Virus record (IMG/VR): IMGVR_UViG_3300047678_000169
Coordinates: 16,239-80,238 of that record
From: a virus
Strand: one strand, 5' to 3'
Length of the DNA: 64,000 bases
The notes under the pieces were generated by a model. That model saw only the letters and a program-made list of their open reading frames with translations. It was not told where the DNA came from and made no database searches. Of the stretch, positions 20,905 to 57,046 are shown piece after piece. The translations under genes and the position numbers were made by a program. The stretch's first letter is position 1; every line of letters begins with the position of its first letter.

Positions 20905-21198
20905 TTATTTCTCGACTCCGAGGATTTCTTCGATGTGTAGAAGATAGTGTTTGGCACCATCAACCTTAAATTCATTTCTTAGGTTCTTAGGAACAATAGC
21001 GGTAGCCTCAGGAACAAGCTCTTCTGGAACTTGAACGTCCTTGGTTCCCTTACCGACAGCTATTACAACGGCTCTATTGAGTCCATCAACTGCTGTAGGT
21101 GGTATGTAAAGTTCAAAATCACCTGATTTTGTGGTTTCTTCGGCCTCAACAAGTCTTACTAAGACCATGTTGCCAAGTGGAATTATTGTTTTGCTCAT
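20905..21198 (-). CDS. groES: 10 kDa co-chaperonin GroES
   Basis: The 97-residue protein starts [20 protein letters not shown], matching the PLxDRVLV beginning of GroES, and has [20 protein letters not shown] in the mobile loop/roof region. It caps the GroEL chamber. The mobile loop is divergent from host types, so it may be tuned to the phage GroEL. It overlaps the glycosyltransferase stop upstream by 4 bases. Confidence 0.92.
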
Positions 21199-22484
21199 AG
21201 TTTTTCGATTTTCTTAAATTTAGGTAATACCAACTGAACTTTCTTTTCAAAGACTGGTAAATGTTTTTCTATAACTTCAATCAACAACTTGTTACCAGCC
21301 TCAAGGGTGAACTTTTCAGAATTCTCAAGTCGGAGTTTTTCCGCATTTGGGACGTAGTTGATGTAATTTTCAAATACATCATTCATCTTACCAGCTGCGA
21401 CACTGTAGTTTACGGTATACCAGTTTCCTTCTTTGACAATCCATTCATTGACTGCTGAATCGGGTATGTTGGTCAATGTTCCAGGCAACAATACCGCTAA
21501 GGTCTTTGGTAAAAAGTCCAATTGACCTGACCAACCAGAAGCAATTACTGGCTTGCCACTCAACGATGCTTCTAGTAGAGGGCGACCAAATCCTTCTCCG
21601 TGAGTAAAGCAAACGTGTGCTTTTACCTTTGGGTGATTGTATAGTCGATTCATTTCTTCAAGGCTTAGGTCGCCATGAACAAGATAGACGTTTGGTAAGT
21701 TTCCTTCCAATCCATGACGGGCACGATTAATCTTCTTCAAGATTTCATCCTTATCCATTTGAGAGAAATTGGCTCCAGAAGTCTTTAGAATCAATGCCGG
21801 TGCGTTCTTTTTATTCTTAAACACTTCACTGAACACCTTGACCAACATTCCAATATCCTTGCGGTCGGCTCCCAAGTCTCCTTGTAGCCAGTGACCAACC
21901 ATCAAGAAACCAAATGTCTCTGGAATACTATTCATCATTTGGTCAATCGCAGGATTTTCCTTTTGGGTCTTTTTAAAGATGGATGTGTTCACCCCTTCAA
22001 ATGCCACTTCGATTGGCTTGTTGAGAGCAACAGCCTCTTGGCGGCCGTCTGGATGGGTTCTTGTAAATGAAGCCTTAACAAATACATCCTTTGCAAATTT
22101 AGAAGGGACGATGTTAAGATTCATTCTGTTCAAACCATCAATCCATTCAGCCTTCGGTAAGGTTGTTTCAATACCGGCGGTGATACCAATGTTGAATTTA
22201 CCCATTGCTTGAAATTCATTTGGTATGGATACCTGAACGAATAGTTCTGGCTGAGTGGTGATAGGTGCTGTAGCAATTGCTGCTCTAATCAAAGCGCTGT
22301 TTGGGTCTTCGTCCGTGTCCAAAGCAGTGTTTGGACAAGCCCCCCAACGCATAGGAATGATTTTCAAATCAAACTTTCCCCAGTTGATGAGTGCGATGCA
22401 TATCTGCCTCATGTGGTCCCCATACCCGCTCCGAGATTGGACGGGTCCCTGTATTACACAAATTGGTTTTATTTCTTGATTCAT
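21195..22484 (-). CDS. glycosyltransferase family 4 (GT-B fold)
   Basis: The 429-residue protein has a Rossmann-like N-domain (PICVIQGPVQSRSGYGDHMR). The C-domain segment CFTHGEGFGRPLLEASLSGK is the E-x7-E donor-binding motif of GT4 enzymes. VYLVHGDLSLEEMNRLY precedes it. It is directly upstream of groES, with ATG/stop overlaps on both sides. Confidence 0.85.
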   Translation of the reverse strand: MNQEIKPICVIQGPVQSRSGYGDHMRQICIALINWGKFDLKIIPMRWGACPNTALDTDEDPNSALIRAAIATAPITTQPELFVQVSIPNEFQAMGKFNIGITAGIETTLPKAEWIDGLNRMNLNIVPSKFAKDVFVKASFTRTHPDGRQEAVALNKPIEVAFEGVNTSIFKKTQKENPAIDQMMNSIPETFGFLMVGHWLQGDLGADRKDIGMLVKVFSEVFKNKKNAPALILKTSGANFSQMDKDEILKKINRARHGLEGNLPNVYLVHGDLSLEEMNRLYNHPKVKAHVCFTHGEGFGRPLLEASLSGKPVIASGWSGQLDFLPKTLAVLLPGTLTNIPDSAVNEWIVKEGNWYTVNYSVAAGKMNDVFENYINYVPNAEKLRLENSEKFTLEAGNKLLIEVIEKHLPVFEKKVQLVLPKFKKIEKL

Positions 22485-23278
22485 AGGTCTAAATTGGTTT
22501 CTGTGATTATCTTGTAAGACATTTCATTTGTCAAACAATATTGTTGTGCGGCTTTTGTTTTTGCCATAATCTTTGGTTGTTTTAGTAAATTTGTAGGCTT
22601 GACTTCGTGTATCTCTGTTTGATTTATTAAGAAGTCTGGGACATAATATCTATTGACGTTCGTGGTTGGGTCAAAGTATTGAATGTGGACACCATGTTTC
22701 TTAGTCCATTTGATTCCGGAAAAGTCCATGATTTCCATGTATTTTTTCTCGTAGGAGCTTTCATAATACTCTTTGGTTCCGTCTGGCTTCTTGTGCCAAC
22801 CCTTAACGAAGCGATGTTGATTTTTGAGAGTTCCATTGGCTAATTTTCGGGAAATGGTTTCTGATACTTTTTGTCCAAGAGCTTTATAGTCGGTTTTTCT
22901 TTTTGATAAATCGATTTCTCCATTATCATACATCCTCTGTATTATTATGGAGTTTTTCTTTGATAGTTTTTGTAATCGTTTGTCTGTTTTCTTAGATTTT
23001 CCCGTTGCCCAAGGTTCTCCAAAATTATATCCATTGCCCGGTTTTGCTAATTGAGGATGTGTGTCCTTTGTCAGACCATTGTTCCAACTGCCTCCATGAT
23101 TTTTTGACCATTTACAAAATCCACGCTTAGCGTTTTCTCTCCTTTCTTCAAGCCGTCTGGGGTCTGAATTGGAACACTTCTTGCTACAGTATTTAGCAAT
23201 GTCTTTACGATAGGTTCCGACGTAAAATGTGGAGCTACATACCTCACAATGTTTTTGAATTGGTTCTTTTCTTTTCAT
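22481..23278 (-). CDS. PD-(D/E)XK-type homing endonuclease with N-terminal zinc finger
   Basis: An N-terminal CEVCSSTF...CSKKC motif forms a zinc finger. The C-terminal third has RYYVPDFLINQTEIHEVKPT, where PDF and EVKP are the catalytic PD-(D/E)XK residues of Vsr/EDxHD-like phage homing endonucleases. The middle is basic and repeat-like. It has 265 residues. It is inserted between a small gene and a GT4 gene, as expected for a free-standing homing endonuclease. A relative lies at 29625-30101. Confidence 0.75.
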   Translation of the reverse strand: MKRKEPIQKHCEVCSSTFYVGTYRKDIAKYCSKKCSNSDPRRLEERRENAKRGFCKWSKNHGGSWNNGLTKDTHPQLAKPGNGYNFGEPWATGKSKKTDKRLQKLSKKNSIIIQRMYDNGEIDLSKRKTDYKALGQKVSETISRKLANGTLKNQHRFVKGWHKKPDGTKEYYESSYEKKYMEIMDFSGIKWTKKHGVHIQYFDPTTNVNRYYVPDFLINQTEIHEVKPTNLLKQPKIMAKTKAAQQYCLTNEMSYKIITETNLDL

Positions 23279-23408
23279 TTTCTATTTCCTTTATGAGTAT
23301 GGTTTCGGCCCAACTGGATATCTTCAAACTATTGACCCTGCAATAGTTCTTGATAATCTCATATGATGGTGAGTTTATCGGAAGAGTCTTTTTTGGTGAT
23401 TTTGTCAT
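23244..23408 (-). CDS. small hypothetical protein (54 aa)
   Basis: ATG 23408 follows a TATACTTATGGG element by 4 bases. The protein starts MTKSPKKTLPINSPSYEI, has a short hydrophobic helix and ends in a basic tail. Its 3' end overlaps the first 35 bases of the downstream endonuclease gene. No family is recognised. Confidence 0.45.
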   Translation of the reverse strand: MTKSPKKTLPINSPSYEIIKNYCRVNSLKISSWAETILIKEIENEKKRTNSKTL

Positions 23409-23412
23409 ACCC

Positions 23413-23420
23413 ATAAGTAT
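23413..23420 (-). promoter_or_regulatory. ATACTTAT element upstream of 54-aa gene
   Basis: Same element, minus strand, 5 bases before ATG 23408, preceded by TATAT. Confidence 0.45.
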
Positions 23421-23433
23421 ATAGAAAGTGTAG

Positions 23434-23457
23434 AAAAGTGTATTTATTTACACTTTT
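23434..23457 (-). terminator. hairpin after small coiled-coil gene
   Basis: AAAAGTGTA and TACACTTTT pair as a 9-bp stem around a 6-nt loop, just downstream of the 23467-23658 gene. Likely an intrinsic terminator, with U-rich stem base. Confidence 0.55.
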
Positions 23458-23466
23458 CTTAAGATA

Positions 23467-23658
23467 TTAAGGTGCCGTTCCTGGAGTGTTCTGTGCTTCT
23501 TGTTCTTCAATGATTGCGTGAATTTCGTTCTCTACATCGTTGATACGGTCTTTGAAATCGACGTTAGCAGCTTTCTTCTCATTCTTGATTTCGGAGAGTT
23601 GCTTTGTCAATTCATATACCTTTGTCTTTGCTTCGTCTTTAGTTAGTGGCTTTGCCAT
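23467..23658 (-). CDS. small coiled-coil protein (63 aa)
   Basis: The protein is a single charged helix (KDEAKTKVYELTKQLSEIKN and DRINDVENEIHAIIEEQ), predicted coiled coil, ending TPGTAP. A hairpin (23434-23457) follows it as a likely terminator. It lies 17 bases after the GT4 gene. Function unknown. Confidence 0.6.
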   Translation of the reverse strand: MAKPLTKDEAKTKVYELTKQLSEIKNEKKAANVDFKDRINDVENEIHAIIEEQEAQNTPGTAP

Positions 23659-23675
23659 AGTTTTGTTGGGTTAGA

Positions 23676-25175
23676 TTATTTGTTAAATTTTGATAATACT
23701 TTGTCTTTGTCGATTGGAGGAATTATGAATCCAAGATTATTGTCTGGCATCTGATGACCTACGTATTCGTCATGGCGGTGAAGATTAAACTTCTCTCTTC
23801 CCTTCCAGTTGACCATCATTGAATCGAGTCCTTCAATCATTTTGTTACACATGTTTCCGGAGTTCAATCCTCCAATTCCATTAGCGTATTCACGACCAAG
23901 TGCTCCATATTCGGTTCTTTTCTCATGACCAACGCTATACCAATACATCAATGCTTCAGCAGCATCTTCCCAGCGAGCATAGTCTGCCAAGATGTAAGGA
24001 GTTGGAATTGAACCCTGTAAGAGTCTAGCGCCTGGATAAATTGGCGTTACCCACTTACCATGCTTTTGGTATCTACCATCGTGGTTACTTCCCCATGTAG
24101 TATCAAATTCAACGAGCTTTCCAGATTCGTCTTGGAAACCACATTGGTCTTGAAGACCTCCGGTAACAGTTACAATGATTGGAGTTCCTGCCATGAGACT
24201 TTCAGCTGTTCCCAATCCAAATCCTTCATTGTCAGAAAGATTGATGGTAACATCAGCCAAATTATACAAGATGTTCATTTCTGCTGGACCATACTTTCCA
24301 TTACTGAATAGAACATCATAGTTCGGACACAGCGCTTCCTTACATGCAATCAAATCGGTTCCAGCATCTTCGACTGGGTTAGTGTGAAGTAAAAATACAC
24401 ACTTAGCAGCTTCTTCCTTTGGAAGATTGTCACAGAAGGCTCGGTAAGCGAGCATAATGGACGATGTTTGTTTACGACGAATATTTCTACTGTTGTAAAG
24501 AACAACATATTTGTAATCCTTCTTAAAGAGGGATTTCTTCATTGCAGCCACCTTGGCCAAATCAGCTTCGGAAGTCAATGGACGAAATACGTCGGGATTG
24601 ATTCCGTGTGGGACATAAGTAACTGTGGTCGGCTTGTTATATGTGGTTCCCAAGATGCTCTTAACAATGTTTTCAGTTTGTTTGCTGATACATCCAATCC
24701 AATCACAGCTTTGATAGAATGGGCGATTATACATTGGGTATGGTAGGTCGTCCCAAATTGAATAGAATCCAATTGGAACCTTTTGACGAACTTCACGTTC
24801 AATTCCATATAGCCAAATCCAGAAACGTGGGTCAGTGAAGTGGAGAATAGCGTCTGGCTTTTCCAAGCCCATTACTTCATTCAAGATTTCAGGGCTTCCA
24901 TATCCATCGACTGGATAGAGTTGAACATATGGGTCAACGATGCCGGTTTCTACCTTTGTAGCATCATTGAGGTTCATGACCCTACCCTTTTCAGGATGTT
25001 GAACAGCTCCGGCGATTTGTGCCCAATTATATTTGTGAGCGGTTCCCATTACGAATTCTCTGGCCATCGTTGCGATGCCTGAGTGCATTCTTAGGTCGTC
25101 ACAGAGAAGCAAAATCTTTTTGCGTTGTTCCTTTGGTAAGTATCCTTCACGTTGTCCGATAATAGAGAATGACAT
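23676..25175 (-). CDS. glycosyltransferase family 4 (GT-B fold)
   Basis: A 499-residue GT-B protein. The N-domain begins KILLLCDDLRMHSGIATMAR. The C-domain has TINLSDNEGFGLGTAESLMA, the E-x7-E donor site, and TPIIVTVTGGLQDQCGF. TYVPHGINPDVFRPL is the usual interdomain linker of GT4 enzymes. It is first in transcription order of the large glycan operon and is preceded by a 42-base gap. Confidence 0.88.
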   Translation of the reverse strand: MSFSIIGQREGYLPKEQRKKILLLCDDLRMHSGIATMAREFVMGTAHKYNWAQIAGAVQHPEKGRVMNLNDATKVETGIVDPYVQLYPVDGYGSPEILNEVMGLEKPDAILHFTDPRFWIWLYGIEREVRQKVPIGFYSIWDDLPYPMYNRPFYQSCDWIGCISKQTENIVKSILGTTYNKPTTVTYVPHGINPDVFRPLTSEADLAKVAAMKKSLFKKDYKYVVLYNSRNIRRKQTSSIMLAYRAFCDNLPKEEAAKCVFLLHTNPVEDAGTDLIACKEALCPNYDVLFSNGKYGPAEMNILYNLADVTINLSDNEGFGLGTAESLMAGTPIIVTVTGGLQDQCGFQDESGKLVEFDTTWGSNHDGRYQKHGKWVTPIYPGARLLQGSIPTPYILADYARWEDAAEALMYWYSVGHEKRTEYGALGREYANGIGGLNSGNMCNKMIEGLDSMMVNWKGREKFNLHRHDEYVGHQMPDNNLGFIIPPIDKDKVLSKFNK

Positions 25176-25217
25176 AATGTAACTGTGTTAGTATGGAGTG
25201 TTTTAAGTGTTTGTCAA

Positions 25218-25427
25218 TTAGAATGATGAGCCGCTCGCTTGAAGGTCGGTTGTTTTATCGACCTGCGTGCGGAATGCTTCATTGTTGACATACAGATAAA
25301 CACAACGATTGACCAATTTCTGTAGAGACATTCCGTTTCCGACTGATAGATGCTTGAATGCATCATACTTGTCCTTGAATACGTGAACGCTCGTGAAAGA
25401 GGTTTGGTGGTTTCCTTTGAGTCTCAT
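25218..25427 (-). CDS. small hypothetical protein (69 aa)
   Basis: The protein contains VFKDKYDAFKHLSVGNGMSL and LQKLVNRCVYLYVN, a strand-helix-helix pattern reminiscent of ribbon-helix-helix regulators. No strict signature is present. The gene stands alone between spacers of 42 and 115 bases. It might be a small DNA-binding regulator. Confidence 0.5.
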   Translation of the reverse strand: MRLKGNHQTSFTSVHVFKDKYDAFKHLSVGNGMSLQKLVNRCVYLYVNNEAFRTQVDKTTDLQASGSSF

Positions 25428-25477
25428 AAATTTCCTTGGTTAGTTTACATTCATATATATGGATGTATAACGGAAAT

Positions 25478-25495
25478 AATCGCTCAAAAGCGATT
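25478..25495 (-). terminator. hairpin after 25543-26160 gene
   Basis: AATCGCT and AGCGATT form a 7-bp stem with a 4-nt loop downstream of the gene. No strong U-run follows. Confidence 0.4.
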
Positions 25496-25542
25496 TTCTA
25501 TCTTCTTATATACCACTCTAAAAATAAGGATATTTTAATCCG

Positions 25543-26160
25543 TTATTTATTTAATGAGGACTCAATCTTTTCTTTATATTTAGTCGGAAACCCAATCATG
25601 ACCTTGGTAAAGGTCTTTCCTTTGATTTCTCTCTTATAATGAAATTCATCAACAGGAATTATAGTTTTTCCAGGCAAAAATTGTGGGACCTCGGACACAG
25701 GAACCTTCTTCCACCCCATTCTATTCGCCATTGCTTCGGCAGCACCGGACACTTCAGCGTATGTTCTCTTCAATAACAAATCGTCTTTAATGATGCGTAT
25801 TAAGTCAATAAGACCTTGTGTTGGTTTCGAACCTTCTCGACCAGACGATGCTCCCATGACTCTTTTCAAACCAAATTCAGTTCTTTGAACAATAGCAATG
25901 GCTACAACATCTTTACCTCTCCTTGACATTTTCCAAAACATGTCTGGGTCATTGGCTAATTTAATCAATTCATCACGCATGCCTTGTTCAGTTTCAATTC
26001 CCTTGTATCCGCCGGCATAACGGTAAGATTTGACCATTAATGGAAGCACTTGGTCAACAAACTTGAGCTTCTCTTGAGTGGTTCTCGCGTTGAGAACATG
26101 CTCTTTCAAGACCTCTTGAACAGATTCTATAATAAGTTTTCTAATATCTGAGCGATTCAC
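25543..26160 (-). CDS. phage protein of unknown function, possibly GNAT-like (205 aa)
   Basis: The N-terminus MNRSDIRKLIIESVQEVLKE is the short helical tag often seen on T4-like virion and prohead-associated proteins. The body has beta strands and a VVAIAIVQRTEFGLKRVMGA stretch. I cannot assign an activity; an acetyltransferase-like fold is only a guess. An AAATAAATATAG element lies just upstream of its ATG. Confidence 0.5.
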   Translation of the reverse strand: MNRSDIRKLIIESVQEVLKEHVLNARTTQEKLKFVDQVLPLMVKSYRYAGGYKGIETEQGMRDELIKLANDPDMFWKMSRRGKDVVAIAIVQRTEFGLKRVMGASSGREGSKPTQGLIDLIRIIKDDLLLKRTYAEVSGAAEAMANRMGWKKVPVSEVPQFLPGKTIIPVDEFHYKREIKGKTFTKVMIGFPTKYKEKIESSLNK

Positions 26161-26184
26161 TTAAATAAATATAGAACAACTCTC

Positions 26185-27282
26185 TTATCCTTCCTTTCCG
26201 TCGCAATATTTTTCACCCGTCACTGTATTTACCATGTCCTTGAAAGAACAATATTTGCAGTTCTTTTTGGCTTTTCCGGGATTCTTACCAAATGGAGACT
26301 CCTTGTTGTATTCTCCGTGGGCATCAAAACACTCATTGATAAAGTCTAAGAAAGACTCTTCAACCATTTTCAAGCTCATTTTTCCATCGGGAGGAGCAAC
26401 ACGTTGAATTCTCTGTTGTGGGAATGCCAAATCTTCGTATAAGCGCCTCTTCAAGATAATGAATTCAACTTCAATGTCACTCAAAGGTGTCTTATAGACT
26501 TGATTGTAGAATCTCTTGTATAGCAAAAGTTGGTCGAGCTTTGTTCGGTCAGCCTTTTGATACTTGTTCCAACCAAACGTAGAAGTTTTGAAGTCCAAAA
26601 TGCGAATCTTTCCGGTGGATTTCTCTCTCAATACAATGTCAAGAAATCCCTTGTAAATGATAGTTCCGCCGCGGATGGGAATGTTGAGAGGAAGTTCGAT
26701 ACCAACAATTTCGTAAATTTTAGATGGAAAATGTTTACTTCTCACGGAATGAGATACAAAGTAATCGATGATATTTTTACCATCAACTCTAAATTCTTCA
26801 ATTTCAACATCAATGAATTCACTTGGGAGCTCTACGTGCTCTCTATTTTCAGAAAGAGCTTTCTTTTTCTCTTCCTCTCTTCCCTTAGTCTCTTTTTCTC
26901 GTATCGTCTTAATTTCTTTGTCATATTCTGTGTTGAACTGACCAACGCAATCAATAGCTTCAGCTTCGATTGCTCCTTTGGTGTAAAGGACATTTAAGAA
27001 ATTTTGTAAAACCGTATGTATAGCCTTACCAAAGGCTGTGTTGATGGAGTCGTCCCAGGTTGAGAGCTTGTCCATATATGACAATTTCCATTGAAACGGA
27101 CATTTTAGCCACATTGCATATTGACTAAAACTCACCGTTTTAGGCTTCTTCGCTGTTGGGTCTTTTTGTGGTGTGGTTGGAGGAACAACTGAAACGTCTA
27201 TTGCCTTTAGAGCCACTTCATCACCAACAATAAAAAAATCTTCCATTTCTACAATTACAACAGATTTTTTTACCACTGTCAA
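26185..27282 (-). CDS. PD-(D/E)XK nuclease, Cas4/RecB-like
   Basis: The 365-residue protein has FSQYAMWLKCPFQWKLSYMD (N-terminal cysteine plus QxxxWK). Mid-protein KIRILDFKTSTFGWNKYQKA carries the catalytic D-x-K (DFKTS). The C-terminal NCKYCSFKDMVN plus YCDGK supplies further cysteines, as in Fe-S Cas4/AddB-type nucleases. It is likely a recombination or DNA-processing exonuclease. It is divergent from the plus-strand operon, so promoters for both probably lie at 27283-27329. Confidence 0.8.
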   Translation of the reverse strand: MTVVKKSVVIVEMEDFFIVGDEVALKAIDVSVVPPTTPQKDPTAKKPKTVSFSQYAMWLKCPFQWKLSYMDKLSTWDDSINTAFGKAIHTVLQNFLNVLYTKGAIEAEAIDCVGQFNTEYDKEIKTIREKETKGREEEKKKALSENREHVELPSEFIDVEIEEFRVDGKNIIDYFVSHSVRSKHFPSKIYEIVGIELPLNIPIRGGTIIYKGFLDIVLREKSTGKIRILDFKTSTFGWNKYQKADRTKLDQLLLYKRFYNQVYKTPLSDIEVEFIILKRRLYEDLAFPQQRIQRVAPPDGKMSLKMVEESFLDFINECFDAHGEYNKESPFGKNPGKAKKNCKYCSFKDMVNTVTGEKYCDGKEG

Positions 27283-34170: not shown

Positions 34171-35136
34171 TTAAGATGCCATTTTGTAACCGATAAGGCT
34201 GTTTGTCAACGTTTTTTCGTGTATAATAATCGCTTTCTCTTTACCTTTGAACTCAAACTCTAAGTGAAGCTTCTTTTTATACAGTCGATATTCCCAAGAA
34301 TCTCTCCAAGGAGAAATGGCATGGGCGCGGGAAACTTTGTCCTTCTCATGGTCAGAATAATGAAATAAAGGAGTAATTTTTTTAGGCCAAGTAGAAACAC
34401 AAACTTTAAGAGCGGTCATTGCATCGTATCCATCAGGATTTAAAGCATGATGGAGATTGTCATAGGTGATAGGAATTTTTCTCTTGGAAAAAATGTAATT
34501 TTGAAGAGCCTTAACTGACCAACTATTTTTCTTGTCTTCATTTTCAAGAACCAAACGAAGTCTGACTGAATCTGGCAATGAATCGTATTCGTGAATGAAT
34601 CTATCAGCAATTTTTTGAAGTGTTTCGTGTCCGCCACCCAAGAAGCAATTCAAATGAATGTTGATAGGAGCTTGGTAAGACCTTGGAAGTTCGAGTAAAT
34701 CCATAATGAACCCATGTTGAATTAATTCACGGCGAGCCGACTCACGAACATGGTCTTTTTCGGAAGCTAAGACAACAAATTGGTCAGGATGCATACTACA
34801 ACGCATATCGCTACCAATCATGAAATAACCAATAGATGCAGCAGCCTTCTTAATTTTATCAGCATCTTTCAAGTCCTCAAGTTGGTATTGAACTTGAGGA
34901 TGGGTCATCAACGGAAACACGTTACTTCCAATTCTATAATTCCAACCGTGGTTAGAACAAGTCAAGATGTGCTGTTTGATAGCCTTCATGTTGGCTAGAG
35001 CTCGTTCTGACAATGCTTCCATTGCTTTTGCTTTGCCAAGTTTGACGTATTGTGAATACGTCATGGTTTTAAACTTACACCCCTTATCTTGAAGGCCGGT
35101 GTGGATGCAGCAAAGAGACGGTTTATGTTGAATCAT
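34171..35136 (-). CDS. uvdE: UV damage endonuclease UvdE/Uve1-like
   Basis: The 321-residue protein has RCSMHPDQFVVL, PINIHLNCFLGGG, LVLENEDKKNSW and ITYDNLHHALN. These are the metal-site motifs (H, E, D/H) of the UvdE TIM-barrel, which nicks DNA 5' to UV photoproducts. It is the expected length for the family. Start at 35136 is the first ATG. It adds a photolyase-independent repair route for the phage. Confidence 0.85.
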   Translation of the reverse strand: MIQHKPSLCCIHTGLQDKGCKFKTMTYSQYVKLGKAKAMEALSERALANMKAIKQHILTCSNHGWNYRIGSNVFPLMTHPQVQYQLEDLKDADKIKKAAASIGYFMIGSDMRCSMHPDQFVVLASEKDHVRESARRELIQHGFIMDLLELPRSYQAPINIHLNCFLGGGHETLQKIADRFIHEYDSLPDSVRLRLVLENEDKKNSWSVKALQNYIFSKRKIPITYDNLHHALNPDGYDAMTALKVCVSTWPKKITPLFHYSDHEKDKVSRAHAISPWRDSWEYRLYKKKLHLEFEFKGKEKAIIIHEKTLTNSLIGYKMAS

Positions 35137-37722: not shown

Positions 37723-38127
37723 TGGTGGACCTGCGGGGAGTTGAACCCCGGTGTTTCATAAATTGCTCATCAGACATATACAAGCGTTAACACGGTGGAT
37801 ATGATTGTGGTTAGTAGTGTGCTCCACAAAAATTAGAGTCAGTAGTTTCTTCGTTGTTACAGTCTCACTTTCTCACAACGAACATATCAGCAGAGGTTGA
37901 CGTATTGACCCACTTATCTGCGTGGTGGAATACGGACTGCTCAGTTTATTAAGCAGCGACAGCCATAGCGGCTCCAACGTTCTTCGCCTTGCGGAGAAGT
38001 GTTAGAACATTTAGCTTAGCAAGATTTCTCTTAGCATTTAGTTTTTGTAATCAGGATTATGCAGGATGTTTACCACCTGCGCTTGCGTTCCGAGCTCAAC
38101 CCATAAAGTCGAATCCTGGACAGGCCC
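37723..38127 (-). ncRNA. ssrA: tmRNA (transfer-messenger RNA)
   Basis: The 5' end reads GGGCCTGTCCAGGATTCGAC, close to the conserved tmRNA start. The 3' end has T-arm CGGGG-TTCAACT-CCCCG and then CAGGTCC-A-CCA, which pairs with 5' GGGCCTG as the acceptor stem. At nt 93 (38035) a reading frame opens with GCT and ends at TAATAA (37946-37951), encoding a 28-residue tag that ends MAVAA, in line with protease-degron tags. The tag is longer than the 10-residue E. coli type. It would rescue stalled ribosomes during infection. Confidence 0.92.
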
Positions 38128-49104: not shown

Positions 49105-49180
49105 TGGTAGGCCTGGAGGGAATCGAACCCCCATCCAAACGTTCGAAGCGTCTGTTTCTAATCCGTTGAATTACAAGCCC
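49105..49180 (-). tRNA. tRNA-Arg(TCG)
   Basis: Anticodon arm CAGACG-CTTCGAA-CGTTTG, T-arm GGGGG-TTCGATT-CCCTC, acceptor GGGCTTG/CAGGCCT, CCA encoded. Confidence 0.85.
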
Positions 49181-49299
49181 ACTAAAAGTTTTCTCAAATA
49201 ATACATAACATACAGAAGATGGCAGTTGCTTAGGCTGATTTAGTTCTGCTACCATGTATCTTTTCAGGGAGTCCCTCAATCCATAAGCGGTGGATAATA

Positions 49300-49400
49300 T
49301 AGCTCCAAGAGGCGCGGTCTAGTTGGCCGTGTTTGAGAAAAGGGCCCTCGCCCACGGGGACGGAGGGGGCCTAGCCGCGGGTGTGTATGTCCGAGTCTAG
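49300..49400. other. GC-rich island in an AT-rich genome
   Basis: Runs such as GGGCCCTCGCCCACGGGGAC and GGAGGGGGCCTAGCCGCGGG are strikingly GC-rich compared with neighbouring DNA. No gene or RNA is recognised. It directly follows tRNA-Val(TAC) at 49409 in transcription order. Confidence 0.5.
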
Positions 49401-49408
49401 GGGATGAT

Positions 49409-49484
49409 TGGTGGGAAACCTCGGGCTCGAACCGAGAACCTTCGCTGTGTAAAAGCGCTGCGCTAACCATTGCGCCAGTCTCCC
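49409..49484 (-). tRNA. tRNA-Val(TAC)
   Basis: Anticodon arm CGCT-TTTACAC-AGCG, T-arm CTCGG-TTCGAGC-CCGAG, acceptor GGGAGAC/GTTTCCC, CCA encoded. Confidence 0.88.
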
Positions 49485-49492
49485 AAATGCCG

Positions 49493-49933
49493 TTAGGCCA
49501 AAATTTTTCTTAGTTTCATACATTCAATACCATGATAGGATTTTTTCTCACCTGTGGGTTTAAAACCTTCCTTAACAAGATTAGCGTATGAATAAACGTT
49601 CTTCAATCCAACCCAAACATTGACCCTCGAAGCGTTCTTGGCTTCTTTCTTTACATGTTCAATTCTCTGTTTGATTAAAAGTCTTTGTAGTCCATTTCCT
49701 CTGTGCTTTTTCGTGACCACACAGAGTCTCAGTCCCCAAAATCCGTGATAACAGGTGATTCCACCAAATCCGACGATTTCATCATTGAACTTAGCAACAA
49801 ATATACGATGTAAAGACTTTTTAATCTCAGCCGCAGATAAGTGAGTGTATTCACTTTCGTTTGCTATTTTCTCAAGTGTAGGAAGAACTTCTTCCCATTT
49901 GCTTTTTTCTAATTTTTCAATGATGTATTTCAT
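49493..49933 (-). CDS. GNAT-family acetyltransferase
   Basis: VTKKHRGNGLQRLLIKQRIE is the acetyl-CoA binding motif A (R-x-x-G-x-G/A). IVGFGGITCYHGFWGLRLCV forms the preceding strands and NVYSYANLVKEGFKPTG the C-terminal motif B. It is 146 residues. Substrate unknown; it could modify a host or phage protein. It lies between two tRNA genes. Confidence 0.85.
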   Translation of the reverse strand: MKYIIEKLEKSKWEEVLPTLEKIANESEYTHLSAAEIKKSLHRIFVAKFNDEIVGFGGITCYHGFWGLRLCVVTKKHRGNGLQRLLIKQRIEHVKKEAKNASRVNVWVGLKNVYSYANLVKEGFKPTGEKKSYHGIECMKLRKILA

Positions 49934-49938
49934 AAATT

Positions 49939-50021
49939 GGTAGCGAGGGTGGGAGTCGAACCCACATTCCTTTCGGAGACTGATTTTGAGTCAGTTGTGT
50001 CTGCCATTCCACCACCCCGCC
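49939..50021 (-). tRNA. tRNA-Leu(CAA)
   Basis: Class II. Anticodon arm ACTGA-CTCAAAA-TCAGT, T-arm GTGGG-TTCGACT-CCCAC, CCA encoded. Confidence 0.88.
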
Positions 50022-50025
50022 ATAA

Positions 50026-50208
50026 TTACTGTTTAAATTCCTTATTCCAGCGACTCAACATTTCAGTTGTAGCATCAGAAGCTTTCTTCTGAGTCCATTT
50101 GTCAACTTCTTTGTCGATTAGTTCTTTAGGATACATTCTACCACGCTGCTTCGCAGTATAGTGTTGGAATTTTCCTTTGACTACTGGTAATTTGTTTTCT
50201 TCTGTCAT
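50026..50208 (-). CDS. small hypothetical protein (60 aa)
   Basis: Charged, helical: MTEENKLPVVKGKFQHYTAK, with a basic middle (KQRGRMYPKELIDKEVDKW). No family recognised. It lies between tRNA-Leu genes. Confidence 0.5.
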   Translation of the reverse strand: MTEENKLPVVKGKFQHYTAKQRGRMYPKELIDKEVDKWTQKKASDATTEMLSRWNKEFKQ

Positions 50209-50292
50209 AAATTGGTGCTGTCTTTCTCGCCGTCACCGGTCTGAGGAACGGCGTTTCAATGCCTGCTCAGTGTCGTATTCGGTTTACGCTAG

Positions 50293-50378
50293 TGGTAGCC
50301 AAGGTGGGATTCGGACCCACAAGGACATCGCATTCTAAGTGCGGCGGTTCTTCCAATTTCCCTTTCGTCCACTTGGCC
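50293..50378 (-). tRNA. tRNA-Leu(TAG)
   Basis: Class II. Anticodon arm CCGCA-CTTAGAA-TGCGA, T-arm GTGGG-TCCGAAT-CCCAC (T-loop starts TCC), acceptor GGCCAAG/CTTGGCT, CCA encoded. Confidence 0.85.
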
Positions 50379-50386
50379 ATAAATTC

Positions 50387-50797
50387 TTAAAAAAGAGGCT
50401 TCTTTTTTTCTTCTTTGCCTTTTTTGATTTGTTCTTTTGTTGGTTTTGGAGCTTCTTTAGTTTTCCAAGCTAAATGTTGGTAAGCATATGCCAAATTGCA
50501 AATTGGGCAATCTTCCGAATCTTTTTCTCCATGTCTTGCTGGCTTTAAATCTTTTGTAACAGAGCCAAATCCAGCATTGCAACAATTGTTTCCACAACAA
50601 GGACAACGAACAAACATACATTGGCACAAACCACAATAGTCCCATGTGAACATGAAAACTCTTTTTTCTTTCCAGTCTTTGTGCCATCCATTTTTCTTAG
50701 AGCCAATTTCTTGCTCTCCACCTTTCATATAGGTTGGGTCAAAAATTTGCTTAAATGGTTTATATTTAAATTTTCGCATATAGCACATTGACTTCAA
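50387..50797 (-). CDS. Cys-rich zinc-binding-like protein (136 aa)
   Basis: CGLCQCMFVRCPCCGNNCC and a later CPICNLAYAYQH provide many cysteines, consistent with zinc binding. The N-terminus is basic and the C-terminus Lys/Pro-rich. It may bind nucleic acid. Not assigned to a family. Confidence 0.6.
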   Translation of the reverse strand: MKSMCYMRKFKYKPFKQIFDPTYMKGGEQEIGSKKNGWHKDWKEKRVFMFTWDYCGLCQCMFVRCPCCGNNCCNAGFGSVTKDLKPARHGEKDSEDCPICNLAYAYQHLAWKTKEAPKPTKEQIKKGKEEKKKPLF

Positions 50798-50837
50798 TAC
50801 TGATTTTAGTCAAGATATAAAATAGACCCACTTTTTA

Positions 50838-50924
50838 TTAATGTTGGTGGGAATCATTATTATCATTACCGTCTGTTACGACAAGTAGTGTTAACAATAA
50901 CAACACGATTGTCGCTTGTATCAT
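50838..50924 (-). CDS. short hydrophobic peptide (28 aa; tentative)
   Basis: ATG 50924 encodes MIQATIVLLLLTLLVVTDGN followed by an Asp/Asn/His-rich end, like a membrane or signal peptide. No clear ribosome-binding site. Could be chance. Confidence 0.3.
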   Translation of the reverse strand: MIQATIVLLLLTLLVVTDGNDNNDSHQH

Positions 50925-51057
50925 AAAATTTTGAATCAGGCCCGTCTCAGTTGTGAACGCTCAAGAAGAGCGAACCTTTAACCTGTGGTCAGACTGAATC
51001 GCGTTTTTCAGCCCAAATATACGAATCTACACGTAAGCTGGTTCGGTCTAATTCAAA

Positions 51058-51136
51058 TGGTGGGAAGTCAGCGAATCGAACGCTGTTATTTCGCTCTTCA
51101 GGCGAACGCTGAAATGACCACACTAGCTCACTTCCC
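51058..51136 (-). tRNA. tRNA-Phe(GAA)
   Basis: Anticodon arm TTCGC-CTGAAGA-GCGAA, T-arm CAGCG-TTCGATT-CGCTG, acceptor GGGAAGT/ACTTCCC, CCA encoded. Its 5' end overlaps the stop of the Mom-like gene. Confidence 0.88.
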
Positions 51137-51660
51137 AATATCACGCCACATTGTTTCCAACGTGTTCAAGCATTCATTCACTGTTTTCCAGTCGATGTTG
51201 CTCTTTAAATTGTTTATTACCCAATTCTTTTGGCTTTTCGAACCAATTGGATAAACCCATCTCTTCTTTCCAGCAGATTCCCCTTGATAAACTGCGTTGG
51301 TTGCCTTGTAGATGGCTCCCGTGTGATGGCTTGAATCTGAATATGTTAAAATCACTTTTATTTCTGGAAATTTTGTTCCCACATAATCATTACACTTGGA
51401 TATTGAATACCAGCTAAATTTTTCTTGGAATCCTTTGGAAGAATAGCTTCATCATCAACCAAGAACAATCTTTTCAATTCAAGAATGTCTCTATTGGAAA
51501 CTTCAACACCATTTTTGAAAATTGCCTTGTAAGCCGTGAAGGCTATTGGAGAACCATAAATAACAGTTCCTACCATCACACCATTATAGAAGATACCCAT
51601 GTAAATCTTTGCCGCACTTGGGTAATCTCCAAGATAATGCTTCGTAACAAAGTCTTTCAC
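51128..51660 (-). pseudogene. Mom-like (GNAT-related) DNA-modification protein, frame-interrupted
   Basis: Two overlapping frames together encode a Mom/GNAT-like protein. The first (51358-51660) has MGIFYNGVMVGTVIYGSP and ILELKRLFLVDDEAILPKDS. The second (51128-51382) continues SWYSISKCNDYVGTKFPEIK and SDSSHHTGAIYKATNAVY. They join across a classic -1 slippery heptamer A AAT TTA (51415-51421). A likely N-terminal extension upstream of 51660 is in yet another frame, so this is either a decayed gene, a sequence error or a recoded gene. Confidence 0.6.
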
Positions 51661-51750
51661 AGAGTTTCTATCAACTTCCTTGAAAGAAACAGCCTGGGGT
51701 CTAAAAACTCATTAATCATGAGTATAAATATAACGAAATCGTATATAAAA

Positions 51751-51836
51751 TGGTAGCCGTGGTGGGATTCGAACCCACAGAGGATAAGACGTTTTAAGTG
51801 TCTCGGTTGTAGCCAATTTCCCTAATCCACACGGCC
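51751..51836 (-). tRNA. tRNA-Leu(TAA)
   Basis: Class II. Loop CTTAAAA between AGACA and CGTCT, T-arm GTGGG-TTCGAAT-CCCAC, acceptor GGCCGTG/CACGGCT, CCA encoded. Confidence 0.85.
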
Positions 51837-51901
51837 AAAAATTATATTCTTCTTTTCTTCCATCCAGTTTCGATAGAAAGGGTTTTTGAAACTATTTTAA
51901 G

Positions 51902-51987
51902 TGGTGGGCATAAGAAGATTCGAACTTCCAAGGACTACGCATTTTGAATACGTCGCTTCTACCAATTTCGCTCTCGTCCACATGCCC
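51902..51987 (-). tRNA. tRNA-Leu(CAA), second copy
   Basis: Class II. Anticodon arm ACGTA-TTCAAAA-TGCGT, T-arm GGAAG-TTCGAAT-CTTCT, acceptor GGGCATG/TATGCCC, CCA encoded. Confidence 0.85.
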
Positions 51988-51992
51988 AAAAA

Positions 51993-52646
51993 TCAAAGAT
52001 GTTCCAATTTGGATTGAACTTTCTTAATGTCCATCTTATGAAGCTTGAAAAATGCTATCATCGAAGCTGGAGCCAAAAATGTCATGTATTGGTCAGGAAC
52101 AATTGATGTCAACTGAACCAATGCGTTCTTTAGAGCTTCATTCTGAATGAAGTTCGGTAAATTTTTGAGAAGAATGATTAGAACCATCAACACAATCGGC
52201 CAAATTCCTTTGGACATTAATGGATTGTAGCTCTTCACAATGGAACTGAATCTAGCATTGTGTATCTTCATCAATTTAACTGGAATTGATGGGTGTAAAA
52301 TCAAAATTTGCTTGAATACTTCTTGATTGAAAATTGCGACCTTCATTGGAGTTATCGAAACGATAGAAGCACTTCTTGGTGTTCCTGACAATAGCGACCC
52401 TTCTCCAATCAAATCATGAGGCTTGAGGATAATCTTGGCCGGTTTTCCAGCTTTCAATACTTGAGCCTTTCCCTCTAAAACGAGATACATTGAGTCTCCG
52501 GTGTCTCCTTCAACAATGAAGGTGACGCCAGTGGAATATTCTTTGATTTCACACAATGCCGCAACCTTTTTTAAGGTGGGATGTGGAACGTCTGAGAAAA
52601 GAAATCCTTTACTCAATTCGTCTGGAGTAGTGGTCAATTTTGGCAT
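51993..52646 (-). CDS. cyclic-nucleotide-binding domain membrane protein
   Basis: Residues 15-130 form a cNMP-binding domain with LIGEGSLLSGTPRSASIVSI, the phosphate-binding cassette including the ligand arginine. A membrane helix (GIWPIVLMVLIILLKNL) follows and then a helical C-terminus. The combination suggests a membrane protein that responds to a cyclic nucleotide. A phage might use it as a sensor or a sponge. A TATACTTAT element lies just upstream of the ATG. Confidence 0.8.
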   Translation of the reverse strand: MPKLTTTPDELSKGFLFSDVPHPTLKKVAALCEIKEYSTGVTFIVEGDTGDSMYLVLEGKAQVLKAGKPAKIILKPHDLIGEGSLLSGTPRSASIVSITPMKVAIFNQEVFKQILILHPSIPVKLMKIHNARFSSIVKSYNPLMSKGIWPIVLMVLIILLKNLPNFIQNEALKNALVQLTSIVPDQYMTFLAPASMIAFFKLHKMDIKKVQSKLEHL

Positions 52647-52651
52647 ATGAC

Positions 52652-52659
52652 ATAAGTAT
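52652..52659 (-). promoter_or_regulatory. ATACTTAT element upstream of cNMP-binding gene
   Basis: Same element, minus strand, with TATTATACT forming a good -10 match, just before ATG 52646. Confidence 0.45.
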
Positions 52660-52697
52660 AATATATGCTATTGTAACTTCAATCCATTTTAAAAAAT

Positions 52698-52844
52698 TGG
52701 TGAGAACGCTGGAATCGAACCAGTTTTTCAGCACGTTTCAAGACTTACAATGAGTTTCTTCAAGCCTGTTCGAATTATGAGTCCGAGGATTTCGAAGCGT
52801 TTCAAATTGCTATCGCTGATGTATTACCAACCTACTCCATTCTC
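52698..52844 (-). tRNA. oversized tRNA-like gene (147 nt), CAT-type arm inside
   Basis: Acceptor GAGAATG/CGTTCTC, T-arm CTGG-TTCGATT-CCAG, encoded CCA and D-arm GTA-GGTTGGTAA-TAC are present, but about 95 nt separate D-arm and T-arm. Either TCAGC pairs with GCTGA (intron-like loop between), or an internal TCGGA-CTCATAA-TTCGA anticodon arm is flanked by insertions. Confidence 0.55.
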
Positions 52845-52848
52845 AAAT

Positions 52849-52933
52849 TGGTGCGGATAGAGGGACTCGAACCCCCAAGCCTTTCGGCACATGCACCTCA
52901 AGCATGCGTGTCTACCAATTCCACCATATCCGC
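52849..52933 (-). tRNA. tRNA-Leu(GAG)
   Basis: Class II. Anticodon arm CATGC-TTGAGGT-GCATG, T-arm GGGGG-TTCGAGT-CCCTC, acceptor GCGGATA/TATCCGC, CCA encoded. Confidence 0.88.
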
Positions 52934-52945
52934 AAAGAGAAACCG

Positions 52946-53167
52946 TTAGGCTTCCCAGTTAAACCTCATATCACCATAGCTTGATGGACAGTAGCAATAC
53001 TCGTCTCCATGCCCGCCATGACAACCGATGTAATCGTGGTCATACTTAACCTTGGAAAAATCAGTGACTCCTTGTTCAAGCAATTGCTTCAACACATCTG
53101 CCAAAGTCTGTCCTTCGGTCAAGTAAATTGCTCCACGCTTAATTTCCTTGATGTTTTTCTTTTTCAT
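52946..53167 (-). CDS. hypothetical protein (73 aa)
   Basis: Begins MKKKNIKEIKRGAIYLTEGQ and has a C-terminal Cys/His segment (CHGGHGDEYCYC) that could bind metal. No family recognised. Confidence 0.5.
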   Translation of the reverse strand: MKKKNIKEIKRGAIYLTEGQTLADVLKQLLEQGVTDFSKVKYDHDYIGCHGGHGDEYCYCPSSYGDMRFNWEA

Positions 53168-53211
53168 AGTTGTTTGTCTCCTTCTCTTACAATATTAGAG
53201 CGAGCATTCAA

Positions 53212-53391
53212 CTAATCAAATTCTTCTACAGTTGGAGCGTGTTTTTTAAATTTACGTCTCCTTCCGTTTATATGTCCACACACTTCACATTTAACTCCTG
53301 GAACTACCCAGTTTCCATCGCAGCCGTGACAGTATCCTCTACTACGTTTTGGTATCTGTGATTTTCTACGATTGATATGTGATGTTTTCAT
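53212..53391 (-). CDS. small zinc-ribbon protein (59 aa)
   Basis: Start at ATG 53391 (MKTSHINRRKSQIPKRSRG) avoids overlap with the upstream tRNA. CHGCDGNWVVPGVKCEVCGH is a CxxC...CxxC zinc ribbon. A basic N-terminus suggests nucleic-acid binding. Confidence 0.6.
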   Translation of the reverse strand: MKTSHINRRKSQIPKRSRGYCHGCDGNWVVPGVKCEVCGHINGRRRKFKKHAPTVEEFD

Positions 53392-53394
53392 AAA

Positions 53395-53470
53395 TGGAGC
53401 TCCTAATTGGAATCGAACCAATTTCCCCATCATTACCAATGACGAATTCACCCATATGAACTTTAGGAGC
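53395..53470 (-). tRNA. tRNA-Thr(GGT)
   Basis: Anticodon arm CGTCA-TTGGTAA-TGATG, T-arm ATTGG-TTCGATT-CCAAT, acceptor GCTCCTA/TAGGAGC, discriminator T, CCA encoded. Confidence 0.88.
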
Positions 53471-53598
53471 AAAAATTTTGTAATAATGATAATCCCCTTC
53501 ACCAAATTTCTCTGGTTGAGGCCAAGACACACCTGTTATCATCCCTCTTGGTCGTTAACTGCAAATCGAACTAGTATAATCCACAGTTCTATTACAAA

Positions 53599-53684
53599 TG
53601 GTGCAAAGGACTGGATTCGAACCAGCGAAGCCTTACGGCGAAAGCTTATGAAACTCCCTGTTTTAGCCACTTACCTACCCTTGC
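53599..53684 (-). tRNA. tRNA with anticodon CAT (Met/Ile), class II-like variable arm
   Basis: Acceptor GCAAGGG/CCTTTGC, T-arm CTGG-TTCGAAT-CCAG, CCA encoded. The anticodon loop TTCATAA gives CAT. A variable arm GCC-GTAA-GGC is present, which is unusual for a Met or Ile tRNA. Confidence 0.65.
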
Positions 53685-53694
53685 GTTAAATTAA

Positions 53695-54029
53695 TCAGAG
53701 AAGCTATAGCCGATGTTCTGTCCAGAACCGAAGTCCCTGACCTTACATTTCTCTATGAGACGTAAATTTTGCCTCATTCCAAGCTTTTCGCCGGGATGCC
53801 CCTACCTTAGTATGCAAACGAGCGACTCACGCTCTCTACAATTTTTGGGTTACTGCGGATGATGTGGTATTAACGAACCGCTTGTGTCCGAGAACCATAG
53901 ACCCTCCTGATTTGGACTCAGGCACTATGGCGGTTGGATGATACAGCATTGTTCTCCCAGCTACGAGTCGAGCAGCATCGAACTTCCTCTATGGTTTTCT
54001 TTCCCACAGCGTAAGGTCGCTTACTCTGA
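53695..54029 (-). ncRNA. rnpB: RNase P RNA
   Basis: In RNA sense it contains AGAGGAAGTTCGATGCTGC and GACAGAACATCGGCTATAGC. These align with the universal P4 strands of RNase P RNA (GAGGAAAGUCCGGGC and ACAGAACCCGGCUUA), and their CGATG and CATCG pair. The 5' TCAGAG and 3' CTCTGA close helix P1. The length of about 335 nt fits. It lies inside the tRNA array and would trim 5' leaders of the phage tRNAs together with host RnpA protein. Confidence 0.88.
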
Positions 54030-54032
54030 AAA

Positions 54033-54124
54033 TGGTAGGCGTAGCTGGACTTGAACCAGCACTCGGCACCTATCAGGTGCGCCAGGTTTATAAAACCTGC
54101 GGTGCTACATTACACAATACGCCC
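54033..54124 (-). tRNA. tRNA with anticodon TAT (Ile), class II-like
   Basis: Anticodon arm CAGGT-TTTATAA-ACCTG, a 6-bp variable arm GCACCT-GAT-AGGTGC, T-arm GCTGG-TTCAAGT-CCAGC, acceptor GGGCGTA/TACGCCT, CCA encoded, A73. The D-loop lacks GG. A class II Ile(TAT) tRNA is unusual. Confidence 0.7.
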
Positions 54125-54129
54125 ACAAA

Positions 54130-54203
54130 TGGCTGGGATAGAAGGAATCGAACCTCCACTAAAGCTTTCAGAGAGCCCTGCGCTACCACTACGCCATATC
54201 CCA
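54130..54203 (-). tRNA. tRNA-Gln(CTG)
   Basis: Anticodon arm GGGCT-CTCTGAA-AGCTT, T-arm GGAGG-TTCGATT-CCTTC, acceptor TGGGATA/TATCCCA, discriminator G, CCA encoded. Confidence 0.88.
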
Positions 54204-54214
54204 ATAAATTCAAT

Positions 54215-54290
54215 GTGGCTGCCCCCCAGCGAATCGAACGCTGATAAACCGAGTCAAAGTCGGCGATAATAACCGTTATATGAGAGAGCA
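54215..54290 (-). tRNA. tRNA-Gln(TTG)
   Basis: Anticodon arm GCCGA-CTTTGAC-TCGGT, T-arm CAGCG-TTCGATT-CGCTG, acceptor TGCTCTC/GGGGGCA with wobbles, discriminator G, CCA. Its 5' part overlaps the stop of the HNH gene. Confidence 0.85.
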
Positions 54291-55088
54291 ATGTTTCTTA
54301 ATCTTCGGAACAACGATATGGTGTTCACGGCAAATTTCTTTTAAACGATTTGCACTTACACCATACAATTTTCCCAATTTTCGTAGAGAAGTTTTTGTTA
54401 CTTCGTCGGAAAGTTTTTTGAGGGAGTCGTCGTTCCATTTAATTTTTTGATTCCGTTTTTGTAGAGGAATGTTGACAACAAGTAACCCACAGATTTTTCT
54501 CAACTGGTGTTGGGTTATTCCGTGTTTTTTCTTAATGTCACTACAAGTTAACGTTAAACAATCTTGTCTAAATTCATCGGAGTCAAACCTATCTATGTAG
54601 ACTTTGTTCAACTTTAGATTAGAAGACTTCCCAGCGTATGTCGCTGTTTGTGAATGGCAATTTGGACACAAAAAACACAAATTTTCTATACGATTGTCTC
54701 TGTGGTTTCCGTTTTTATGTTCTAGCTGTAAAACTATAAGCTTGTTTCTCCATTCCGTTGTCAGTCCACATTCACATTTATACGGAACCAAATTAAACCT
54801 CAATATTAAGTTCTTTACTGTATTTGTGTTGGTATTACTATTCTCAACAAATACACTCTTACTCGCTTCATACAACGACCATTGACGATGTGTAAACTTT
54901 TTTCCCTTGTTTGATTTCAAATGCTCGGAATTTATTTTTAAAAATTCAATTCTTCTTTTAAGCGTCTTGTTATTAGCTCCCCTCGGTGGGAGGCCACATT
55001 TAATCAATACATCGGAATAAGATTTAGATTCCAGAACTATCTTTGTAAATTCTATATCACTTGTTTCGTAAATTCTACTGGTTTTCAT
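54276..55088 (-). CDS. HNH homing endonuclease
   Basis: Start at ATG 55088; an in-frame ATG at 55118 is less likely because a TATAAGTAT element lies between. The HNH core is CECGLTTEWRNKL ... VLQLEHKNGNHRDNRIENLC ... CPNCHSQTATYAGK. A C-terminal helix-turn-helix (SLRKLGKLYGVSANRLKEIC) may bind DNA. The stop is inside the tRNA-Gln(TTG) acceptor/D region, and the gene splits the array like a mobile element. Confidence 0.85.
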   Translation of the reverse strand: MKTSRIYETSDIEFTKIVLESKSYSDVLIKCGLPPRGANNKTLKRRIEFLKINSEHLKSNKGKKFTHRQWSLYEASKSVFVENSNTNTNTVKNLILRFNLVPYKCECGLTTEWRNKLIVLQLEHKNGNHRDNRIENLCFLCPNCHSQTATYAGKSSNLKLNKVYIDRFDSDEFRQDCLTLTCSDIKKKHGITQHQLRKICGLLVVNIPLQKRNQKIKWNDDSLKKLSDEVTKTSLRKLGKLYGVSANRLKEICREHHIVVPKIKKHCSLI

Positions 55089-55094
55089 ACGCTT

Positions 55095-55103
55095 ATAAGT
55101 ATG
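55095..55103 (-). promoter_or_regulatory. ATACTTATA element upstream of HNH gene
   Basis: Same element, minus strand, 7 bases before ATG 55088, which supports that start. Confidence 0.45.
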
Positions 55104-55162
55104 TAACGGAAGAACCAAAACGTAAATTATTTTACGCTTCCATTACACAATCGGGGAGCGTA

Positions 55163-55795
55163 TCAATTCAATTCTCTTGGGTCAATTGGCTGGCCTGGTC
55201 GTTTGTCTCCAAACAACTTGCAAAATGTGAAGTAAGCCTTCACTGCAACTGGCCACCAGAACCATGTAACTACTTGAGTATTCTCAACAATAAGTTTACG
55301 GTCTGTATCAAACCCTCTAACAAAAATTGGACCACCATTTGGGTTCTTACAGTTGATGAACTTAAATCTTCTGGTTGGTGGGCGACCTGTGTGAATAGCG
55401 TAGTCTCCCATGAGAACATCGTTGATTTCACAATTTTCAAAAGTAACATCACGAACACCAGCTTTCATGCCAATGTCACAAGTTTTGTTCATTGTAAATC
55501 CCTTGGTCTTCTTTCTAGTTCCATCATTCAAAAACTTACAGTCTTTGAAATAAATGTCTCCTCCACGAACCATATCGAAGGCTCGTTCTGCACCATTCTT
55601 GAATATGCAATTTTCAAAACGAAGATTGAATTTGAAGGAGGCTTTGAATCCCCATTCACCTGTCTTACCGTCAAATGTGCAGTTGGTATAAAGTGTATCG
55701 TCTGATACAGCTCCGTATGCTAAGGAATCCTTACCGAAGGTCTGTGGTTGGTCAAAAATTTGTCCGTCAATAGTTGTTGTAAAGCTCATAACCAT
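55163..55795 (-). CDS. right-handed parallel beta-helix protein
   Basis: Repeated FENCIFK, FKDCKFLNDG, FENCEINDV and FINCKNPN units mark a parallel beta-helix of about 20-residue coils (residues 35-170). A C-terminal hydrophobic VVTWFWWPVAVKAYF segment follows. Such folds occur in tailspikes and pectate-lyase-like domains. It may be a tail-associated polysaccharide-binding protein. Confidence 0.75.
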   Translation of the reverse strand: MVMSFTTTIDGQIFDQPQTFGKDSLAYGAVSDDTLYTNCTFDGKTGEWGFKASFKFNLRFENCIFKNGAERAFDMVRGGDIYFKDCKFLNDGTRKKTKGFTMNKTCDIGMKAGVRDVTFENCEINDVLMGDYAIHTGRPPTRRFKFINCKNPNGGPIFVRGFDTDRKLIVENTQVVTWFWWPVAVKAYFTFCKLFGDKRPGQPIDPRELN

Positions 55796-55819
55796 AATTA
55801 TGAGTTATAACAAGTAAAA

Positions 55820-55895
55820 TGGAGCCCTCTGCTGGATTCGAACCAGCCTTTCAAGTTTACGAAACTTGCACATTCGCCATATATGTTTAGAGGGC
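55820..55895 (-). tRNA. tRNA-Thr(CGT)
   Basis: Anticodon arm CAAGT-TTCGTAA-ACTTG, T-arm GCTGG-TTCGAAT-CCAGC, acceptor GCCCTCT/AGAGGGC, discriminator T, CCA. Confidence 0.88.
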
Positions 55896-55901
55896 GTAAA
55901 T

Positions 55902-55976
55902 TGGTGGTTCCGATGGGACTCGAACCCATAACCTGTCGCTTAAGAGGCGAAAGCTCTACCATTGAGCTACAAAACC
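55902..55976 (-). tRNA. tRNA-Lys(CTT)
   Basis: Anticodon arm TTCGC-CTCTTAA-GCGAC, T-arm ATGGG-TTCGAGT-CCCAT, acceptor GGTTTTG/CGGAACC, CCA encoded. Confidence 0.88.
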
Positions 55977-56044
55977 ATATTTTGAACAAGAGGCATCAGA
56001 CTTGCGCTATGGACTTATTTACTGAAATTGTGCATTATTCAAAT

Positions 56045-56119
56045 TGGTGGACTAGTCGGTTATCACCCGAACACGCGATTTAGCTGGATTGCATTACTGG
56101 TTAATCGCCATCGTAGCCC
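56045..56119 (-). tRNA. tRNA-like remnant
   Basis: Acceptor GGGCTA/TAGTCC, A73 and CCA are present, with a D-stem TGG/CCA. The T-loop is GTGATAA, not TTCRANY, and no anticodon arm pairs. Confidence 0.35.
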
Positions 56120-56127
56120 GTAAATAG

Positions 56128-56229: not shown

Positions 56230-56238
56230 ATAAATTAG

Positions 56239-56358: not shown

Positions 56359-56361
56359 AAG

Positions 56362-56755: not shown

Positions 56756-56766
56756 ACAAAATGATT

Positions 56767-57042: not shown

Positions 57043-57046
57043 AAAA

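Follow-up and report, generated by a model that had tools for sequence, protein, structure and literature searches.

The window, a stretch of 64,000 nucleotides from a virus record, encodes a one-piece tmRNA (ssrA) whose tag of 28 residues is ordinary for virus-borne tmRNAs, among which long tags are common. The gene lies on the minus strand at positions 37723 to 38127, with the CCA encoded. The best overall explanation, to which we assign a probability of roughly 0.8, is a complete and probably working phage tmRNA that is served by its host, that directs rescued proteins to ordinary degradation through a C-terminal -AVAA, and that carries a basic linker extension in its tag; its expression, its partners, the protease, and the purpose of the extension are the parts of this explanation that we infer.

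ARAGORN and the RF00023 model, run with Infernal, both called the gene at 38127 to 37723 on the minus strand, and its location in a virus record agrees with an earlier note that had proposed a phage tmRNA. The Infernal match scored 70.4 bits, where the gathering score is 47, with an E value of 2.3e-25, and was aligned along the full model, positions 1 to 374. A full-length match to RF00023 with an E value of 2e-25 is far beyond chance, and the score is modest because the middle part of the RNA aligns poorly. The whole tmRNA also folded better than its shuffled counterparts (z of -3.0). No second tmRNA above the Rfam cutoff was found in the 80,238-base record, a phage fragment, and the weaker matches fell in the tRNA region. 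In this region (49105 to 63459, minus strand), ARAGORN and Infernal report about 33 tRNA genes over 14 kb, with small genes and homing-type endonucleases scattered among them. Two of the tRNA matches, at 56365 to 56495 and 58005 to 58151, are very long and possibly contain introns.

Judged from its sequence, the tmRNA is probably a working molecule, complete with its main parts, all of which lie on the minus strand. The acceptor stem forms seven of seven pairs between a 5' strand, GGGCCUG (38121 to 38127), which supplies G3 of the G3-U70 alanine identity pair, and a 3' strand, CAGGUCC (37727 to 37733), which is followed by ACCA. The T-arm, CGGGG-UUCAACU-CCCCG (37734 to 37750), forms five of five pairs. 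Pseudoknot 1 (38047 to 38080), made of GCAGG/CCUGC and GUAA/UUAC, was read from the sequence and agrees with the RF00023 alignment. It is separated from the resume codon by an 11-nucleotide spacer, AAAAACUAAAU (38036 to 38046), whose U at -5 and whose A at -4 correspond to U85 and A86 of E. coli; in E. coli, A86 sets the reading frame four bases downstream (PMC2481249). The double stop, UAAUAA (37946 to 37951), sits in the loop of helix 5 (CUGCU-UAAUAAACUG-AGCAG, 37937 to 37956), which was identified by fold and sequence. The pseudoknot 2 region (37902 to 37933), with its GCAGAUAA motif, pairs GUAUU with AAUAC and CCAC with GUGG, as indicated by sequence, the RF00023 alignment, and the fold. 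Like those of pseudoknot 1, its stems were read from the sequence; for pseudoknots 3 and 4, the fold contained matching stems for the first helices.

Both programs placed the resume codon at GCU 38035. From this codon the tag frame (38035 to 37952) runs through 28 codons to UAAUAA and encodes AKRNLAKLNVLTLLRKAKNVGAAMAVAA, a peptide with a net charge of +6 and no acidic residues. The 28-residue tag of the earlier note was thereby upheld, and running the Infernal tmRNA model, as the note had advised, retained GCU 38035 and yielded no short ordinary tag. The degron-like end is unique to this frame because the two alternative frames, read from the same point, end early, one immediately and the other after LREILLS. 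The motif AGCUAAAUG recurs in frame 27 nucleotides after the first, likewise with an A at -4, and resumption at this second CUAAAU, with GUU 38008, would give a 19-residue tag, VLTLLRKAKNVGAAMAVAA. We regard that alternative as highly improbable, since ARAGORN and RF00023 both pick the first site and the E. coli-like 11-nucleotide distance to pseudoknot 1 holds for the first site and not for the second. In addition, resumption at GUU would be atypical: in the listed phage tmRNAs with long tags, the codon is GCN, GGC, or, in one case, GAG. We give just as little credence to the idea of a relic gene in decay, or of a decoy that obstructs the host tmRNA. A truncated tmRNA of phage DS6A can inhibit the host tmRNA (PMC4131195, PMC11915505), but the gene in the window retains its functional parts intact, and its frame stays open for 28 codons up to the double stop.

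The tag had been described in the earlier note as unusually long for a tmRNA, and the answer depends on what it is compared with. The commonest bacterial tag length is 10 (PMC11915505), and the median in our bacterial control sample was 11, so the statement that host tags are shorter was correct and the tag is indeed long by bacterial standards. It is not long in comparison with the other phage tmRNAs of our survey, and it falls within the 8 to 35 residues of published tmRNA tags (PMC8012679). The survey used a single 5'-end DNA pattern against viral contigs and species-representative genomes, and tags were read by ARAGORN and kept after checks of the acceptor and of the A at -4. Among the matches listed for this one pattern, tags of at least 16 residues were found in 18 of 31 tmRNAs of viral contigs versus 3 of 53 tmRNAs of bacterial genomes. 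When three viral patterns were pooled, the two additional ones having been applied to viral contigs only and the bacterial side being that of the first pattern, at least 16 residues were present in 27 of 57 distinct viral tags versus 2 of 37 distinct bacterial tags among the matches listed (Fisher, 8e-6), in counts that take in related phages more than once. With similar tags merged, the difference in length was not significant (p of 0.15 to 0.19), because merging reduces the short bacterial tags to a handful of clusters. The viral set probably includes host genes at prophage borders, which work against the long-tag trend. Long-tag genes were also probably undercounted, since ARAGORN missed two of them. 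One, in contig L093 (1942 to 1501, minus strand), is a phage tmRNA whose tag, AELDNSDLFAEAEYIFNNASEFLVTADEAYSLEA, is probably 34 residues long and resembles the tags of L423, L532, and L571, with their IFNN motif; the other, in contig L166, has a tag of 24 residues. Isolated phages gave lengths of 25 residues for ET08, a mycobacteriophage of the Bxz1 group, and 13 for phage G. Judging by the survey, tag length seems to set phage tmRNAs apart from bacterial ones.

The nearest relative of the window tmRNA found among the matches listed was that of L166, a 209-kb viral contig. The two tmRNAs agree at their 5' and 3' ends and in the UCGCUGCUUAAUAAAC block of stops and helix 5, and the L166 tag, GNIVNYIKNFFKSAAPVEALAFAA, is different from that of the window. 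Length may therefore persist while the tag sequence turns over. The window tmRNA gene had no BLASTN match in phage records, the pattern AMAVAA followed by two stops had none in viral contigs, and no close homologue of the window tag was found in the viral-contig searches. Other long-tag tmRNAs of viral contigs, among them those of L180 (GNKNRVRALGFKNRLATKRFGLKSRRLALAA), L203, L532, and L166, have tags of 16 to 34 residues that end in an ordinary degron at the C terminus. Their tag sequences differ from the window's, and one such family is as basic as the window tag.

Neighboring proteins were used as probes for related loci. The protein of the upstream neighbor retrieved three distant loci, which were without a tmRNA, and a 1,251-residue neighbor retrieved none. 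The phage GroEL (19286 to 20902, minus strand), which shows 64 to 65% identity to the GroEL of a 124-kb viral contig (L012), retrieved 80 loci, some of them syntenic with the window. A tmRNA match was present in 6 of the 80 GroEL-locus records and in none of the syntenic group. A small gene upstream of GroEL (20905 to 21198) has weak matches that lie beside GroEL in other contigs and is perhaps its GroES partner. The association of GroEL with two glycosyltransferases and a PD-(D/E)XK exonuclease (window 21195 to 27282) recurs in about ten viral contigs (loci L068 to L083 and L090), a grouping that marks relatives of the window phage.

Phage-type genes in the record, as assigned by PHROGs, include glycosyltransferases, a helicase, an RNA ligase, and a Mom-like protein. 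The window also encodes a UV-damage endonuclease, UvdE (34171 to 35136, minus strand; Pfam E value of 8.9e-44), and a 217-residue protein with a cyclic-nucleotide-binding domain (51993 to 52646, minus strand; Pfam E value of 2.5e-15), a domain that is to our knowledge uncommon in phages. A 401-residue protein (12630 to 13835, minus strand) has a RuBisCO large-chain catalytic domain (Pfam E value of 2e-39) with the motif GGVDFIKEDE. Its nearest solved structure is 4nas, and it had no match in phage records. Another virus-encoded RbcL-like protein has been reported (PMC12607003).

The extension could be driven by the RNA rather than by the peptide: a stem-loop inserted or grown in the mRNA-like region would pack or protect the RNA ring, and the longer peptide would be a by-product. 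The window has a candidate stem-loop within the tag frame (37971 to 38008, minus strand), formed by GUUCUAAC/GUUGGAGC and CUUC.CC-GCAA-GG.GAAG, with a predicted energy of -15.6 kcal/mol and a z of -2.7 on 44 nucleotides that were chosen after the fact. The hairpin was also considered as a repeated mobile element, an idea dropped on finding a single copy in the window. Long phage tag frames as a class do outfold controls, with a mean z of -1.66 (n of 19, related sequences included) against -0.27 and -0.18 for two controls (Mann-Whitney, 9e-7 and 7e-8), and the frames of L180 (z of -3.5), L532 (-4.2), and L545 (-3.7) are striking. In the GNKNRV family, with tags of 31 residues, four pairs have changed on both sides with pairing kept, a number reached by only 4 of 500 shuffles. 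However, the whole tag frame of the window has a z of only -1.0 to -1.2, which is not significant and is equaled by 26% of ordinary coding windows, and no excess structure was detected in the tag frame of the nearest relative, L166 (z of 0.07), or in that of L550. In the GNKNRV family, moreover, the peptide is conserved while synonymous sites vary (dS of 0.5 to 1.0, dN of about 0.1), which argues that the peptide matters too; there the peptide is under purifying selection and the RNA folds as a supported hairpin. Among the long-tag viral tmRNAs, a conserved hairpin was seen in that family only. We consider an RNA-driven extension rather unlikely, and for the window the hairpin was dropped as a full explanation in light of the frame z of -1.0 and the unstructured frame of L166; the stem at 38008 to 37971 is a candidate only.

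The end of the window tag bears on the fate of the rescued proteins. Its C terminus, -AVAA, is at the degron position and is the same as in tags of the bacterial controls, GKQNDFAVAA and AKNNNYSYAVAA, and the extra residues lie N-terminal to it. The earlier suggestion that the long tag might route proteins away from the usual host protease was not borne out by this arrangement. There is a precedent for rerouting, whether to another protease or out of degradation altogether, in the long tag of Mesoplasma florum, which in mollicutes is read by Lon (Lon-based use, PMC8138137), and the window tag is strongly basic (+6, with no acidic residues), unlike most bacterial tags. Nevertheless, the -AVAA end is kept, the first residues, AKRN, are ordinary, no sequence feature indicates another protease, and no Clp, Lon, or adaptor gene was recognized among the subset of the genes whose proteins were scanned. 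Rerouting is in our estimation quite improbable, and degradation by ClpXP is the simplest reading of an -AVAA end shared with the bacterial sample tags. It is possible that the window tag carries extra information, given that purifying selection acts on the peptide of another long-tag phage family.

In the explanation that we favor, the phage tmRNA would be charged through its G3-U70 pair by the host alanyl-tRNA synthetase and would be brought by host SmpB onto ribosomes stalled at broken messages during infection. The 80-kb contig, a fragment of the phage genome, yielded no SmpB gene; huge phages can carry one (PMC7162821), and smpB may lie elsewhere in the genome of this phage. Translation would resume at GCU 38035, adding the alanine and the 28 residues, and would end within the helix 5 loop, at UAAUAA. 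Degradation of the tagged protein would then proceed via -AVAA, with ClpXP as the likeliest protease. The tag would owe its length to about 18 additional codons set between an ordinary beginning (AKRN...) and an ordinary end (...AVAA), an arrangement frequent among phage tmRNAs. The likeliest role of the extension is that of a basic and flexible linker from rescued protein to degron, which would offer the unfoldase a longer hold that needs no adaptor. This purpose is the weakest step of the explanation, perhaps right but one to which we would give somewhat less than even odds. It is more doubtful still that phages have repeatedly evolved long, strongly charged tags, partly from in-frame RNA hairpins, that alter how the host handles rescued proteins, with the window as one instance that has its own basic tag. 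If the GNKNRV family keeps both its peptide and its internal RNA hairpin by selection, phage reprogramming of ribosome rescue and proteolysis would become testable.

Phage-borne tmRNAs were already known (PMC7162821, PMC9004378), and the window tmRNA is one more phage tmRNA of known type, with the long-tag trend in phages as a by-product of interest. With the standard one-piece bacterial tmRNA (RF00023) it shares the overall plan, the G3-U70 acceptor, the T-arm, pseudoknot 1, the spacer with its A at -4, the stops in helix 5, and the -AVAA end. It differs in being phage-borne and in having a tag of 28 residues, where bacterial tags most often have 10. The tmRNA of mycobacteriophage ET08 is likewise a phage-borne, one-piece tmRNA accompanied by many tRNA genes and having a long tag (25 residues), but that tag is acidic, ends in ALV, and has no sequence likeness to the window tag. 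The tag of Mesoplasma florum, at 27 residues, is similar in length to that of the window, but it belongs to a bacterium of a lineage without ClpXP, has another C terminus, and is read by Lon.
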